Below, in pieces: positions 219 through 9,554 of a stretch of DNA of 23,050 nucleotides. Origin of the DNA: a virus; IMG/VR virus record IMGVR_UViG_3300045284_000275, positions 1-23,050 of that record, one strand, 5' to 3'. The notes under the pieces were generated by a model, which was not told the DNA's origin, searched no databases, and worked only from the letters and a program-made list of their open reading frames with translations. The position numbers and the translations under genes were made by a program. Numbering within the stretch: position 1 is the stretch's first letter; the number at the start of each line of letters is the position of its first letter.

Positions 219-394
219 TATTTTTCCATTAATTTATCAATAAAATCTACTAATGATGTTCTTGCAATATTTAAATTAGTATGATTATTTCCATATCCTT
301 CAATATTGTCATGAATTGTTTTTATTTTTTGTTCAACAAAATCTTCAAAATAAGATACTAAATTAATAATTTCATTAATATTTAATTCAGTCAT
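218..394 (-). CDS. Small hypothetical helical protein, 58 aa
   Basis: The frame starts at ATG 394-392, inside the last codons of the nuclease gene (8-base overlap), and ends with TAA sharing one base with the next ATG. The protein is acidic and probably all-helical (MTELNINEIINLVSYFEDF at the N-terminus), with no recognisable motif. Its place directly behind the nuclease in a coupled operon suggests early expression. No function is claimed. Confidence 0.65.
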   Translation of the reverse strand: MTELNINEIINLVSYFEDFVEQKIKTIHDNIEGYGNNHTNLNIARTSLVDFIDKLMEK

Positions 395-1337
395 TAGTCA
401 CATCCCACGCCCTACCCTTGATAAAGTGAAGTTTCATAGTTTCTTCTCTCATTCCTGGATCAGATGCACAAACTTCATTGAATGCGCATTTGCCATATTT
501 ATTTTCACAATGAGTGAAATTTGGGGGCCAGTAGCTGGTTTGAGAATATTTAATCATTTCATTAGCCCAATACGGCACAATTACATTTTGCCATTCATCT
601 AATCTGGCTTTAGAATAACTCATCATCGCTCTTTCAAACTTTTCTTGTGGTTTAAGAGAAGTTTGAAAACCAATCTTATTAATCACCATATTTCGTGATT
701 TCATAAGAATACATTGACCCATAAATTGATTATTTAAACTCAATGAGTCACGTTTTTGTTTCATCGTTTTATGATCAATGGAGAGAATTTGCTGATTGGT
801 ATCAACGATTAAATCGAATTTGGCTTTCCATAAAACTCTAAGAAATTCATTCTCGAATATCACTTCACCTTTAGTATGCTCAGAATGAAGTGGTGTCCAT
901 GCATCACTAGTCCATCTAACTAAGTATTGTAAACAAGTATCCAAACAATGATCGTAACCAATATAATCTCTAATTCCATGACCAATATCTTGCTTTCCAG
1001 ATTTTTGTGGAGTATTTTTAACACCGATGTAATCTCCGATTTTGTGTCCGCATGAAGGTGTTCCAACGAAATCTATTGGAAGATCCTTACATACTGGACA
1101 ACCATTTATGAATAATTTGGCCGCGACTACGCCTAAATCAACTGAATCAGATTTACTTTTACCATCAATAATTCCTTGGTAATAATATTCAAGAAATGCG
1201 TGGACGATAGAACCTGCTTCTAGTGAATTAGATTTACCTTCTTTATCGACTAAATCATGATTGAATCGATTATCTGTCATTCTTCCGCAAGACATGAGAG
1301 AAGATAGAATTGTGGCGTCCATTACTACGTTATTCAT
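387..1337 (-). CDS. Cas4/RecB-like PD-(D/E)XK nuclease with probable 4Fe-4S cluster
   Basis: This 316-aa protein shows the layout of Cas4- or AddB-like RecB-family nucleases. An N-terminal Cys (C17, in MSCGRM) is followed by the GSIVH motif (H46). The catalytic core has D175 in KFDLIVD, then D188 and K190 in IDHKT, and the QFMGQ motif near Q204. Near the C-terminus a Cys triad (C277, C284, C290) could form a 4Fe-4S cluster with C17. Such nucleases resect DNA ends in phage recombination or replication. Between H46 and the catalytic Asp lies an extra Cys/His-rich stretch (C80, C83, C96, H98), which may bind zinc and is not part of the minimal fold. The gene starts inside its upstream neighbour (8-base overlap) and is part of the leftward early operon with the SNF2-type helicase. 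The superfamily call is firm; Cas4-like versus generic phage RecB-like is less so. Confidence 0.85.
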   Translation of the reverse strand: MNNVVMDATILSSLMSCGRMTDNRFNHDLVDKEGKSNSLEAGSIVHAFLEYYYQGIIDGKSKSDSVDLGVVAAKLFINGCPVCKDLPIDFVGTPSCGHKIGDYIGVKNTPQKSGKQDIGHGIRDYIGYDHCLDTCLQYLVRWTSDAWTPLHSEHTKGEVIFENEFLRVLWKAKFDLIVDTNQQILSIDHKTMKQKRDSLSLNNQFMGQCILMKSRNMVINKIGFQTSLKPQEKFERAMMSYSKARLDEWQNVIVPYWANEMIKYSQTSYWPPNFTHCENKYGKCAFNEVCASDPGMREETMKLHFIKGRAWDVTND

Positions 1338-2810: not shown

Positions 2811-2977
2811 TCTTTTTTCCTTCCATATGGTGAATTTGTTTCTGCTATTTGTTCTAGTAAAGATTCTTTTTGTTCTTCATTATCACATTGTTCTAATAAA
2901 TGATTAATTAATTTACTATGAAGATTGTAATATTTTTCTTTTAATTCATAAACTTTATCAAAATCTTTAGAATTCAT
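2807..2977 (-). CDS. 56-aa helical charged protein
   Basis: A 56-codon frame from ATG 2977-2975 to TGA 2809-2807. GGGGGAAGAA immediately upstream, within the end of the helicase gene, is a strong ribosome binding site, and the ATG overlaps the helicase TGA as ATGA. The product is highly charged and probably a helical hairpin (KVYELKEKYYNLHSK, then EEQKESLLEQIAE). It is stoichiometrically coupled to the helicase by position, so it may be a partner; this is inference. Confidence 0.65.
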   Translation of the reverse strand: MNSKDFDKVYELKEKYYNLHSKLINHLLEQCDNEEQKESLLEQIAETNSPYGRKKE

Positions 2978-5028
2978 TTCTTCCCCCTAACCAATGCTTC
3001 AATCAATTCACTAATAATACTGCTCTGGTTCCATTTCGGAATTTCACCTTTATTCATTACAGCATGAAATTGTCTTCTTTTAGTCTCTACAATTCCATCA
3101 AGATGAGTATCAGTTGTATTCTCTGCATGAACATACGTGCAATTAACTGAATTACTATCTTGACCAATTCGGATTAATCTATCTTCAAGTTGTTCTTCAT
3201 TCATGGGATTCCATTGTCTCTCATGAATAATCATATCTGAACAAACTTTTTGTAATCCGTCTGTTCCCTCGCCAGCACTAAGTGTAGAAGCAACTAGAAT
3301 TGCGCGTGGTAAATTAATAAATCGGTCTTTAATTCGCTGATTTTCTTCATCTGTTAGACCAGCAGTTAATGCTAGTACTTCTACTTGATTTAAATTCTTC
3401 AATTGCTGAGTTAGAATAATTCCAACATCTTTATGATGCACACCAATAACTAAATGACGATCACATTCATCTAAAAATTCTTCAACAAATTCAACTGTTG
3501 ATGGAATCTTGGCTAAACCAAGAATATGTCTCATACGTTGTAATCTAGCAATTGCCTCGCCTTCAGTTTTGCCAGAATCTTCTTCGCCTGATATAACTAA
3601 TTCGTTATACCATTTAACAAATTCGGAAACCTCATCATCGTATGCTTTTCTACTAGAATCTTCAATTTCAACAGTTAACTTCATTCGATTAACTGTCGGT
3701 AAATCTGGCATTACATCGTTGCGCTCTCGCCTGATTGCAATATCTTTAATTGCTTCCCTGAATGCCGGGATATTACGAATACCACCCATTTTGGATACAT
3801 TACCATGCATATAGTAATCTACCCAGGTATTCAGGAAATGCTGATATGAATAAAACTTTTGCGGATTAAGCATATTCAGCACAACGAAAAATTCACTACC
3901 ACGATTTTTCCATGGCGTACCGCTCAATGGAATGATGTGTGGAACTTTGCTTAAAACCTTACGAACCTCTTGAGTCCTAGTTGAATCTGGATTCTTAATT
4001 GACTGAACTTCATCAATTACTGCACATTTGATTCCTAATGCTTCAAATTTTGCTTTAGGAATTCGTCTAAGCAAGTCAAATGATGTGATATAGCATTTCA
4101 TTCCCGGCATGAAACCTTGCTTTGAATCACTGATTACCTGAGCAAAGTATTTCTCTCCGAGCCAACGAATAATTTCTTTCTGCCACTGAAATTTGAGTTT
4201 TGATTTAACGATAAACAAAACTGGTAAAACTTCAGGATGAAATTTAATGTAAGCTAATGCTTGAACTGTCTTTCCAAGACCCTGCTGATCGAATACTGCT
4301 GCTCTACCATTTGATTTTTCTAAAAAGCGCGCGCCTTCTACTTGAAATGGAAACAAACGAAATTCATCACACTTCGTACATTTGTTTTTATCAAACTCAT
4401 GCTTGCAATTAACTACATGTTCTTTCCAAAAATTACTAACAATCAAATCAAATGGTGATTGCGAATCGTGATTGATGATTCTTACATGCCCGCACTCAAG
4501 TGTGATTAGCTTCTTAAGAATTCCTTGACTTCTAAATTCTTTAGTTGATTTCTCTTTTGCTACTTTACCACAAACGTCGCATTTATCCTGATAACGAGTT
4601 ACTTTATACTTTGGTTCTCTGACAATTTGTTCTTCTTCTACTAAAACTTTCCTTTTAACTTCAACATAATCTACTTCGAGAATATCACCTGAACGAATTG
4701 CATCAATTGCGCGTGGGTCAAGAATATATGTTACACATGCTTGACCCGAACTACCTAATTCAATAGCTTTATTTCGCCATATCACATCATGCCCGTGATA
4801 AGGTGTTAGCGCGTGTGCTATCTCATGATTTATTGTATCGCGCACTTCAATTTCAGGATGAGTATCAATATGAAATGTATTCAAATAAATTATCTTGAGT
4901 TTTGAATCACATTTACCTAGAAATACTTGTTTACCTGATTCATATGAAACTAACTTAATTTTCCAATCAGTTAGATTGAATTCAGTTAGGCGACTACGGC
5001 AATAATCTGTCGCTTCTTGTCTTGTCAT
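2974..5028 (-). CDS. SprT-like metallopeptidase fused to an SNF2-type helicase
   Basis: This 684-aa protein (ATG at 5028) joins two enzyme families. Residues ~1-115 look like a SprT/Spartan-type zinc peptidase: HEIAH (68-72) with a following GH (H80) as likely third ligand. Residues ~150-220 hold two zinc-ribbon-like clusters (C150/C153/C179; C208/C217/C220). From ~225 on lies a superfamily 2 helicase/translocase of SNF2 type: GLGKT (250-254), DEVQ (339-342), SGTPW (369-373), and the final Q-x3-R-x2-R-x-G-Q signature (613-623). SprT proteins cut DNA-protein crosslinks; SNF2 motors move on double-stranded DNA. A joint role in removing proteins from DNA is inferred. A TTG at 5040-5038 in frame is an alternative start, but the ATG lacks neither length nor domain. 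The ATG sits at the end of a GCGAAGC hairpin, and the 3' end is coupled to the next gene. Confidence 0.88.
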   Translation of the reverse strand: MTRQEATDYCRSRLTEFNLTDWKIKLVSYESGKQVFLGKCDSKLKIIYLNTFHIDTHPEIEVRDTINHEIAHALTPYHGHDVIWRNKAIELGSSGQACVTYILDPRAIDAIRSGDILEVDYVEVKRKVLVEEEQIVREPKYKVTRYQDKCDVCGKVAKEKSTKEFRSQGILKKLITLECGHVRIINHDSQSPFDLIVSNFWKEHVVNCKHEFDKNKCTKCDEFRLFPFQVEGARFLEKSNGRAAVFDQQGLGKTVQALAYIKFHPEVLPVLFIVKSKLKFQWQKEIIRWLGEKYFAQVISDSKQGFMPGMKCYITSFDLLRRIPKAKFEALGIKCAVIDEVQSIKNPDSTRTQEVRKVLSKVPHIIPLSGTPWKNRGSEFFVVLNMLNPQKFYSYQHFLNTWVDYYMHGNVSKMGGIRNIPAFREAIKDIAIRRERNDVMPDLPTVNRMKLTVEIEDSSRKAYDDEVSEFVKWYNELVISGEEDSGKTEGEAIARLQRMRHILGLAKIPSTVEFVEEFLDECDRHLVIGVHHKDVGIILTQQLKNLNQVEVLALTAGLTDEENQRIKDRFINLPRAILVASTLSAGEGTDGLQKVCSDMIIHERQWNPMNEEQLEDRLIRIGQDSNSVNCTYVHAENTTDTHLDGIVETKRRQFHAVMNKGEIPKWNQSSIISELIEALVRGKK

Positions 5029-5043
5029 TTTGCTTCGCAAAAA
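5028..5043 (-). promoter_or_regulatory. GCGAAGC mini-hairpin at the helicase start
   Basis: On the minus strand TTTTTGCGAAGCAAAA forms a 6-bp stem with a GAA loop; the last A is the A of the helicase ATG. The core GCGAAGC is known as an exceptionally stable DNA mini-hairpin. The same 16 bases recur on the plus strand at 9538. It fills the 28-base gap between the 40-aa gene and the helicase and may control translation of the latter. Confidence 0.6.
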
Positions 5044-5179: not shown

Positions 5180-5391
5180 TTCTTTTTATCCAATTTTTCT
5201 ATATTAATTAATACTGACATTGTAAAAATTTGTGGAAAACGAATTAACATAATTGAAGTGAATTGGAGATAAGCAAAATTGAATTCAACATCATTACGCA
5301 TTCTAGATGCAAGAATACGAATATTTTCATCTGTATTTGGATTCTCTGCTATTTTCTGCAAAAAATCATCATACATTTCGCCATTAGTCAT
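5176..5391 (-). CDS. 71-aa hypothetical protein
   Basis: The frame starts at ATG 5391-5389 with ATGA coupling to the 274-aa gene and ends coupled to the 40-aa gene. The first 40 residues look helical and charged (MYDDFLQKIAENPNTDENI); the second half is more hydrophobic (FTSIMLIRFPQIFTMSVLI), possibly a membrane-associated helix, before a Lys-rich end. No family recognised. Confidence 0.7.
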   Translation of the reverse strand: MTNGEMYDDFLQKIAENPNTDENIRILASRMRNDVEFNFAYLQFTSIMLIRFPQIFTMSVLINIEKLDKKK

Positions 5392-6212
5392 TTCTTCTCC
5401 GTTCTAGAAATTGCTGAATGAACTTTGCACAAACCCGGTGTTTCTGAACAAGTGCAATCATCTCTTAATTTGTTATCAATCATTCGCCTTGCTTGTTCAA
5501 TTGGAATTTTCATTATCTTAGCATAACTTTCAGCCATTTTATCACTAGCTGATTGCGCGGTTTTACGTGGTTTCGGCGCTGATTTGATAACTTGTGGAGT
5601 GTAATTCGGCGTATTCAGAGCAAATTCAGCGCGCAATTTCATGCGAAGCATCGGAATTGTTTCAGCCATGTAATGCTGAATTGATTTAATTTCGCCTGAC
5701 ATTTCGATTTGTGCATTGCGCGTTTGAAACAATACCATTGATAGATATTGCACTCGTCTTTTAAGAGCACTCATTAATGCGTAATGCTTATTTTCTGATT
5801 CAATACTTTCATCAGCATTAATAATTTCTTTTAATTCGGCTATATTTGGTATAGTTGCATTAAAGAAATCCGTGTATTGTTTGATGTTGCCTTGAATTGC
5901 TTGGTCGATTATGTTTTTAACACTTTCACCATCTTTATTCACAATTGCTTGTGTTTCGACGATTCTATCGACTTGATTCAATACTTGTTCTAACGAAAGT
6001 TTTTCTTTTTGCTCTAAACTTGGCCCGTGTACTTCTGTATTCTTATGCCTTTCTTGACAATCAGAACACATTACAATTTTACCAATTATTTCAATTGGTC
6101 CTTTATTCAGACAACATTCGCACTGCACGTCATTTCCATGAAGTGATTCCGGTCTAGCACATATATTACAGGCTTTTGCGGACCATTTAGCTGATTGAAA
6201 TGAGTGATTCAT
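5388..6212 (-). CDS. 274-aa zinc-finger and coiled-coil protein
   Basis: The N-terminal ~55 residues are Cys-rich (C15, C18, H25, C31, C33, C34, C49, C52), fitting one or two zinc-binding modules. The middle (~65-200) is charged and helical with likely coiled coil (EQKEKLSLEQVLNQVDRIV and following). A Pro/Lys linker (~203-222) leads to a C-terminal CTCSETPGLCKVH motif (C253, C255, C262, H265), a second possible metal site. The start is ATG 6212-6210 in an ATGA overlap. It may be a scaffold-like nucleic-acid-binding protein in the early operon. It is the largest non-enzymatic member of the Cys-rich set; no named family is claimed. Confidence 0.78.
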   Translation of the reverse strand: MNHSFQSAKWSAKACNICARPESLHGNDVQCECCLNKGPIEIIGKIVMCSDCQERHKNTEVHGPSLEQKEKLSLEQVLNQVDRIVETQAIVNKDGESVKNIIDQAIQGNIKQYTDFFNATIPNIAELKEIINADESIESENKHYALMSALKRRVQYLSMVLFQTRNAQIEMSGEIKSIQHYMAETIPMLRMKLRAEFALNTPNYTPQVIKSAPKPRKTAQSASDKMAESYAKIMKIPIEQARRMIDNKLRDDCTCSETPGLCKVHSAISRTEKK

Positions 6213-8928: not shown

Positions 8929-9537
8929 ATGCCAATGATGGTTTTGTCTGATGACAAGTTTACAGAAGAAATGTCTAAATTTTGCTCTGGTTCTAGTAAA
9001 TTGGTTAATAGTAATGAAACTAAACCAAATTCAGATAAAGAACCAATCGTTGCGCGAACCGAACCCGGTGGTAAAGTCATAGATATTTTGCGAGGGCGCG
9101 GAACTAATCGAGTAGAAATACCAAATAGTGTTAGAATTTTAGTAGCTGAGGAAGCTATTAATGGTACCAAAGCAAAACAAGTTTCAGAGGCATTCGGAAT
9201 TAGTGAGTCTTCTATTAGCGCGTATAAACGAGACGCTACAAGCACAGCAAGCTATGATACGCCAAATAAAGATTTACAAGAAGCAAATAATATTGTTAGA
9301 GAAAACATTACAGAACAAGCTAGATCAAAACTTCTTTCCGCGTTAGCACATGTTACTGATGAGAAATTAGCCGAAGCTAAACTTCGTGATGTAGCAGCAG
9401 TCGCTAATTCGATGAGTGGCATTATTAAGAATATGGAACCGAATGGGCCTAGTCAAGTTAATAATACACAAGTTATCGTGTATAAACCGCGCATGAGAGA
9501 TGAAGATGAATTTGAAGTTATCACGGTGAATGAATGA
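8929..9537 (+). CDS. terS: Terminase small subunit-like protein
   Basis: This 202-aa protein has a helix-turn-helix at ~66-105 (NSVRILVAEEAINGTKAKQV leading into FGISESSISAYKRD), followed by a helical region (~118-172) with KLLSALAHVTDEKLAEAKLR, and a short C-terminal tail with DEDEFEVITV. This order, DNA-binding helix-turn-helix then oligomerising helices and a tail that may contact the large subunit, fits phage small terminases, which bind the packaging site. The start is ATG 8929; ATGs at 8935 and 8938 are alternatives, and none has a clear ribosome binding site. The TerL gene is about 4.4 kb downstream, so the two are not adjacent, which lowers certainty a little. Confidence 0.7.
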   Translation: MPMMVLSDDKFTEEMSKFCSGSSKLVNSNETKPNSDKEPIVARTEPGGKVIDILRGRGTNRVEIPNSVRILVAEEAINGTKAKQVSEAFGISESSISAYKRDATSTASYDTPNKDLQEANNIVRENITEQARSKLLSALAHVTDEKLAEAKLRDVAAVANSMSGIIKNMEPNGPSQVNNTQVIVYKPRMRDEDEFEVITVNE

Positions 9538-9554
9538 TTTTTGCGAAGCAAAAA
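9538..9554 (+). promoter_or_regulatory. GCGAAGC mini-hairpin between two genes
   Basis: TTTTTGCGAAGCAAAAA forms a 7-bp stem with a GAA loop directly after the TerS-like stop codon and one base before the next ATG. Sixteen of these bases are identical to the hairpin at the helicase start (5043-5028, minus strand). Confidence 0.6.

Follow-up and report, generated by a model that had tools for sequence, protein, structure and literature searches.

In the 23,050-nucleotide stretch of viral DNA analysed here (the window; IMG/VR record IMGVR_UViG_3300045284_000275), sequence comparison establishes that the product of positions 2974–5028 combines a predicted SprT-like peptidase and an SNF2 ATPase in one polypeptide. 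The frame is open on the minus strand from an ATG at 5028 to a stop codon at 2974–2976 and encodes 684 residues, along which an N-terminal SprT-like zincin, a pair of Cys/His zinc sites and a full SNF2 ATPase follow one another. Residues M1 and R3 are conserved among relatives, supporting the start at ATG 5028. An initial annotation had proposed an SprT-type zinc peptidase joined to an SNF2 motor, with HEIAH, Cys clusters and SNF2 motifs in a single uninterrupted frame. The frame is as it described, on the minus strand, which it left unstated, and Pfam matches together with invariant residues bear out the joining of peptidase and motor. The fusion is a new domain architecture made from two already known families. 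Its features are located as follows:

2974..5028, minus strand: SprT–zinc–SNF2 fusion gene (684 aa plus stop; ATG at 5028)
4684..5028, minus strand: SprT-like metallopeptidase domain, residues 1–115 (Pfam SprT-like, phrog_1006, model)
4813..4827, minus strand: HEIAH active-site motif, H68–H72 (H68, E69, A71 and H72 invariant, 57/57)
4789..4791, minus strand: H80, probable third zinc ligand (HExxH-x7/8-H-x3-W spacing; 57/57)
4363..4596, minus strand: two Cys/His zinc sites, residues 145–222 (C150, C153, C179, H181; C208, H210, C217, C220)
2977..4362, minus strand: SNF2 ATPase core, residues 223–684 (Pfam, PHROGs, Foldseek)
4267..4281, minus strand: Walker A, GLGKT, residues 250–254 (K253 57/57, T254 55/57)
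4003..4014, minus strand: motif II, DEVQ, residues 339–342, replacing DEAH (D339, E340 and Q342 57/57)
3163..3192, minus strand: motif VI, residues 613–622 (R617 and R620 57/57)

Searching viral sequences for SprT–SNF2 fusions, a check suggested by the initial annotation, revealed a family that numbers no fewer than 94 distinct fusions in IMG/VR. Scanning IMG/VR with single-protein patterns detected full fusions at 76% (L001) and 47% identity (L003-5, L009), and a scan from an alignment, using helicase patterns only, found 112 relatives, 80 of which were kept. The 69 fused loci and the window gave 57 rows when made non-redundant at 90%. Residues H68, E69, A71, H72, H80 and W84 of the peptidase and K253, D339, E340, Q342, R617 and R620 of the motor were invariant in all 57; E69 and K253, which the initial annotation had singled out, are the correct residues. 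Because these relatives were found through helicase motifs, their intact protease motif is independent evidence. A chance frame or chance HExxH was ruled out by this conservation, and an assembly joint of two genes by the occurrence of the distinct fused sequences across many samples. When IMG/VR was scanned with the SprT part, 444 relatives were obtained; among the best 80, 79 continued in frame into an SNF2 domain, and the lone exception ended at a contig edge. Median identity was 58% for the SprT part and 52% for the motor, so that conservation of the former is no lower than that of the latter, and the distances of the two parts co-vary (Mantel r = 0.59; 0 of 2000 permutations). At the level of sequence, the putative protease and the motor are shown to be inherited as a unit.

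The proposal of an SprT-like domain had been made to depend on alignment of the N-terminus to SprT-like families and on conservation of the zinc-peptidase residues in homologues, and both were found. Pfam SprT-like (PF10263) scored 3.6e-5 and 24.0 bits (24.0–25.0) against the window protein, just below the cut-off of 25.6, and matched all 32 N-terminal domains of family members at E < 0.01 (best 3.4e-12); three of the 32 additionally matched WLM (Wss1 family). Among PHROGs, residues 1–102 matched phrog_1006 best (8e-17), followed by further families of unknown function, and they also resemble phage genes annotated as "SprT-like protease". A profile of the N-terminal domains detected the minigluzincins MJ1213 (E = 0.001) and projannalysin (0.013), and weakly human SPRTN (6mdx, E = 0.027). 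W84 follows H80 in the window protein with the spacing given above, and H80 is probably the third zinc ligand. An AlphaFold2 model was poor with a 6-sequence input (pLDDT 65) and reached a mean pLDDT of 85 with a 57-sequence input. In this model, residues 1–90 (pLDDT mostly 84–95, except for a loop near 30–40) form a helix, three strands and the HExxH helix, a secondary structure that agrees with the SprT-like fold, and the linker at about 95–145 is the lowest-confidence stretch. A degenerate pseudo-protease was ruled out, as the motif is intact in every relative that has the N-terminal domain.

The motor matched Pfam SNF2-rel_dom (3e-26) and Helicase_C (7.5e-6) and contains SGTPWKN at residues 369–375 among its SNF2 motifs. 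Foldseek with the model detected CHD4 (1.6e-25) and also Isw1, SNF2H, CSB and ZorD; the top 50 whole-chain matches were SNF2 proteins only, which fill the list and mask any match to the SprT fold. The SNF2 core is shared with the defence proteins ZorD, DrmD and DpdE (PADLOC ZorD, 9e-32), but these match the motor only, far under the curated NCBIfam cut-offs, and the window protein is phage-encoded. Phage SNF2 helicases of phrog_62 share the motor (2e-85), whereas an SprT part was never found in the same gene among 801 phage records matching the helicase. Across 50,697 phage records no fusion was found, and not one record spans 80% of the fusion protein.

Stand-alone SprT-like proteases of phages (phrog_1006, 10840, 3768 and 6445; mycobacteriophage and T4-like) differ from the window's domain, which is fused to zinc sites and an SNF2 motor: the best of 849 matching records shared about 30–37% identity within residues 1–149, and none covered 80% of a 181-residue query. 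The closest arrangement is that of Micrococcus phage Olihed, where the gene directly after an SNF2 helicase gene is a separate one for an "SprT-like protease". Both functions are adjacent, but in two genes, in the reverse order and at 26% identity; the Olihed pair is an independent instance of the same SprT/SNF2 pairing. One pattern-seeded scan of 84,980 prokaryote species yielded neither a fusion nor a close relative (best 29%), as did a search of 72,556 plasmids, and no close relative was detected in 297 genomes of one phylum, in a search without a positive control. The terminase resembles those of Pelagibacter/HMO-2011-type phages only distantly (28%). No SprT–SNF2 fusion was found in the open-licence papers searched, in which it is apparently undescribed.

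The fusion gene lies within a codirectional series of tightly packed ORFs in the window. Two neighbours have relatives linked to it in most of 65 loci:

387..1337, minus strand: PD-(D/E)XK RecB/Cas4-like exonuclease (PDDEXK_1 2.5e-6; phrog_1218 exonuclease 5e-11; linked in 59/65 loci)
5388..6212, minus strand: ORF of 274 aa with a Cys-rich N-terminus (relatives linked in 60/65 loci)

The codirectional ORF 387–1337 corresponds to the RecB/Cas4-like nuclease that the initial annotation had placed in the same operon. The product of 5388–6212 had no PHROG match and no Pfam match above the cut-off; its relatives (about 244–274 aa) are nearly always encoded close upstream of the fusion gene, making it a candidate partner. 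Other companions across the 65 loci were a Sak4-like annealase (phrog_124; 49/65) and a 138-aa protein (37/65), and DNA polymerase A, an HNH nuclease and a DUF3987 primase lie downstream in the contig of one fused relative. Since the neighbours include a RecB/Cas4-like nuclease, Sak4, PolA and a primase, the predicted enzyme is assigned to the phage replication/recombination set. Uncultured phages commonly have SNF2 helicase and RecB-like genes near PolA (PMC6302109).

Several additional observations were made in these loci. The DNA polymerase A in the contig of L073 (L134:436-3000) has a uracil-DNA glycosylase domain at its N-terminus (UDG 1e-19; DNA_pol_A 3e-19), and the PHROG that matches it spans the N-terminal part too. 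The same contig has two more HExxH ORFs, L133:123-806 (227 aa, beside the terminase gene) and L134:4870-9960 (1696 aa), in which the surroundings of the motif are not SprT-like. In the window, the 15-base inverted repeat TTTTGCGAAGCAAAA occurs in exactly two mismatch-free copies, one at 5028–5042, across the point where the fusion gene begins, and another at 9539–9553, just after an HTH ORF (8929–9537); it is a possible operator.

Taken with this genomic setting, the domain content suggests a motor-coupled protease that would rid phage DNA of protein roadblocks or crosslinks during replication and recombination, a reading to which we give about an even chance. The SNF2 motor would translocate along phage duplex DNA and push into, or loosen, bound or crosslinked proteins; the intervening zinc domain would keep the N-terminal SprT protease near the DNA; the protease would cut the loosened proteins; and replication and Sak4-type recombination would then pass. 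Proteolysis, its dependence on DNA, its link with the motor and the identity of the proteins cut are plausible inferences. The initial annotation's suggestion that the protein could strip and cut host nucleoid proteins, defence complexes or crosslinks off DNA is likewise plausible, given the two families and the replication operon.

The closest functional comparison is with SPRTN/Spartan, in which zinc-binding elements likewise come after an SprT-type HExxH protease, and whose SprT domain pairs a protease with a zinc subdomain that binds DNA (PMC9240642). FANCJ translocates into a crosslinked protein and unfolds it so that SPRTN can cut, and in vitro SPRTN requires FANCJ (PMC12279946). In that system, which operates in human cells, the protease and the translocating helicase are separate, whereas the phage protein is one chain and its motor is of the SNF2 rather than the FANCJ type. 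By analogy, the fusion protein may act like an adduct-unfolding helicase (FANCJ) and a protease (SPRTN) placed in cis.

The SprT half is not present in all members of the family. At least nine distinct orthologues are without it (L002, L006/L008, L069, L078/L079, L083, L084, L085, L087 and L088); their N-termini practically coincide with the zinc sites, and precisely the SprT domain is missing. These helicase-only orthologues are interspersed among the fused ones on the motor tree, with 8 state changes, 7 of which are forced by well-supported branches, and the window's own close group contains one (L002, 65% identity). The tree is unrooted, so that the direction of the changes is unreadable from it; a single ancient fusion with repeated SprT loss is nevertheless suggested, because it is a simpler account of the co-variation of SprT part and motor than several acquisitions of a similar domain in one position. 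A profile search detected no second SprT elsewhere in the helicase-only contigs, and no HExxH ORF of at least 80 aa was present in four of them of 44–48 kb; a separate SprT gene was ruled out by these two scans. As at least nine orthologues have neither the SprT half nor another SprT match in the contig, this half is not essential in all hosts; it is useful yet conditional. The two Cys/His sets are conserved with at most one exception in the 57 fused rows, and they are also present in the helicase-only orthologues. The zinc sites may therefore serve the motor and not the protease.

Because repeated loss marks the protease half as conditional, there is room for other roles. One is host take-over or counter-defence, in which the protease would destroy varying host DNA-bound proteins, such as nucleoid proteins or DNA-tracking defence complexes, and the SNF2 motor would carry it there. 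The patchy occurrence of SprT, with its 8 changes on the tree, is as expected for a host-dependent accessory, and the SprT-like peptidases of some jumbo phages likewise have a limited and variable distribution (PMC7824862). However, the gene belongs to a core replication/recombination block and not to a variable accessory region, and SprT is strongly conserved where present, unlike fast-evolving counter-defence genes; we regard this role as unlikely.

The position at which the helicase-only orthologues begin, just past the SprT domain, also bears on processing. The SprT domain might clip the linker of its own chain, or a partner protein of the phage, and thereby release or switch the helicase; the linker is modelled with the lowest confidence, small gluzincins are the closest relatives of known structure, and SPRTN cleaves itself in trans (PMC9240642). 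A purely self-cutting domain, however, need not match the conservation of the motor over its length, and this explanation appears rather improbable. Finally, the protein could be an ordinary phage SNF2 recombination helicase whose SprT domain merely binds DNA or partners. Helicase-only forms do occur in near-complete contigs, and uncultured phages often carry SNF2 helicases near PolA/RecB-like genes (PMC6302109), but E69 and all ligands are invariant in 57/57 without any decayed copies, which leaves such a passive domain very unlikely.

Roadblock clearance by a motor-coupled protease remains our preferred reading. More broadly, we tentatively propose, a little short of even confidence, that a widespread group of uncultured phages evolved a single-chain, ATP-driven machine against protein roadblocks or crosslinks on DNA, in which the SNF2 motor would unfold or displace DNA-bound proteins and pass them to its own SprT protease, an optional module lost many times depending on the host. 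Little is known of the removal of protein adducts and roadblocks in phage replication, and animals use a helicase and a separate protease. The natural fusion makes motor–protease coupling testable in one recombinant protein, with the protease-less orthologues as natural controls, and opens a phage and bacterial route into a field so far mostly eukaryotic.

Variation at Walker A was observed in five relatives, all of which carry the SprT–SNF2 fusion. Three of them (L163, L183 and L188) have GLGKQ instead of GLGKT. The other two, L153 (ORF from 2950) and L191 (ORF from 2968), contain in-frame inteins of about 330 aa with a LAGLIDADG endonuclease, inserted within the motif (GLGK^T). The first residue of these inteins is G or A and not C/S, a Cys is present in CISV, and the end is THN, a pattern that looks like that of class 3 inteins.
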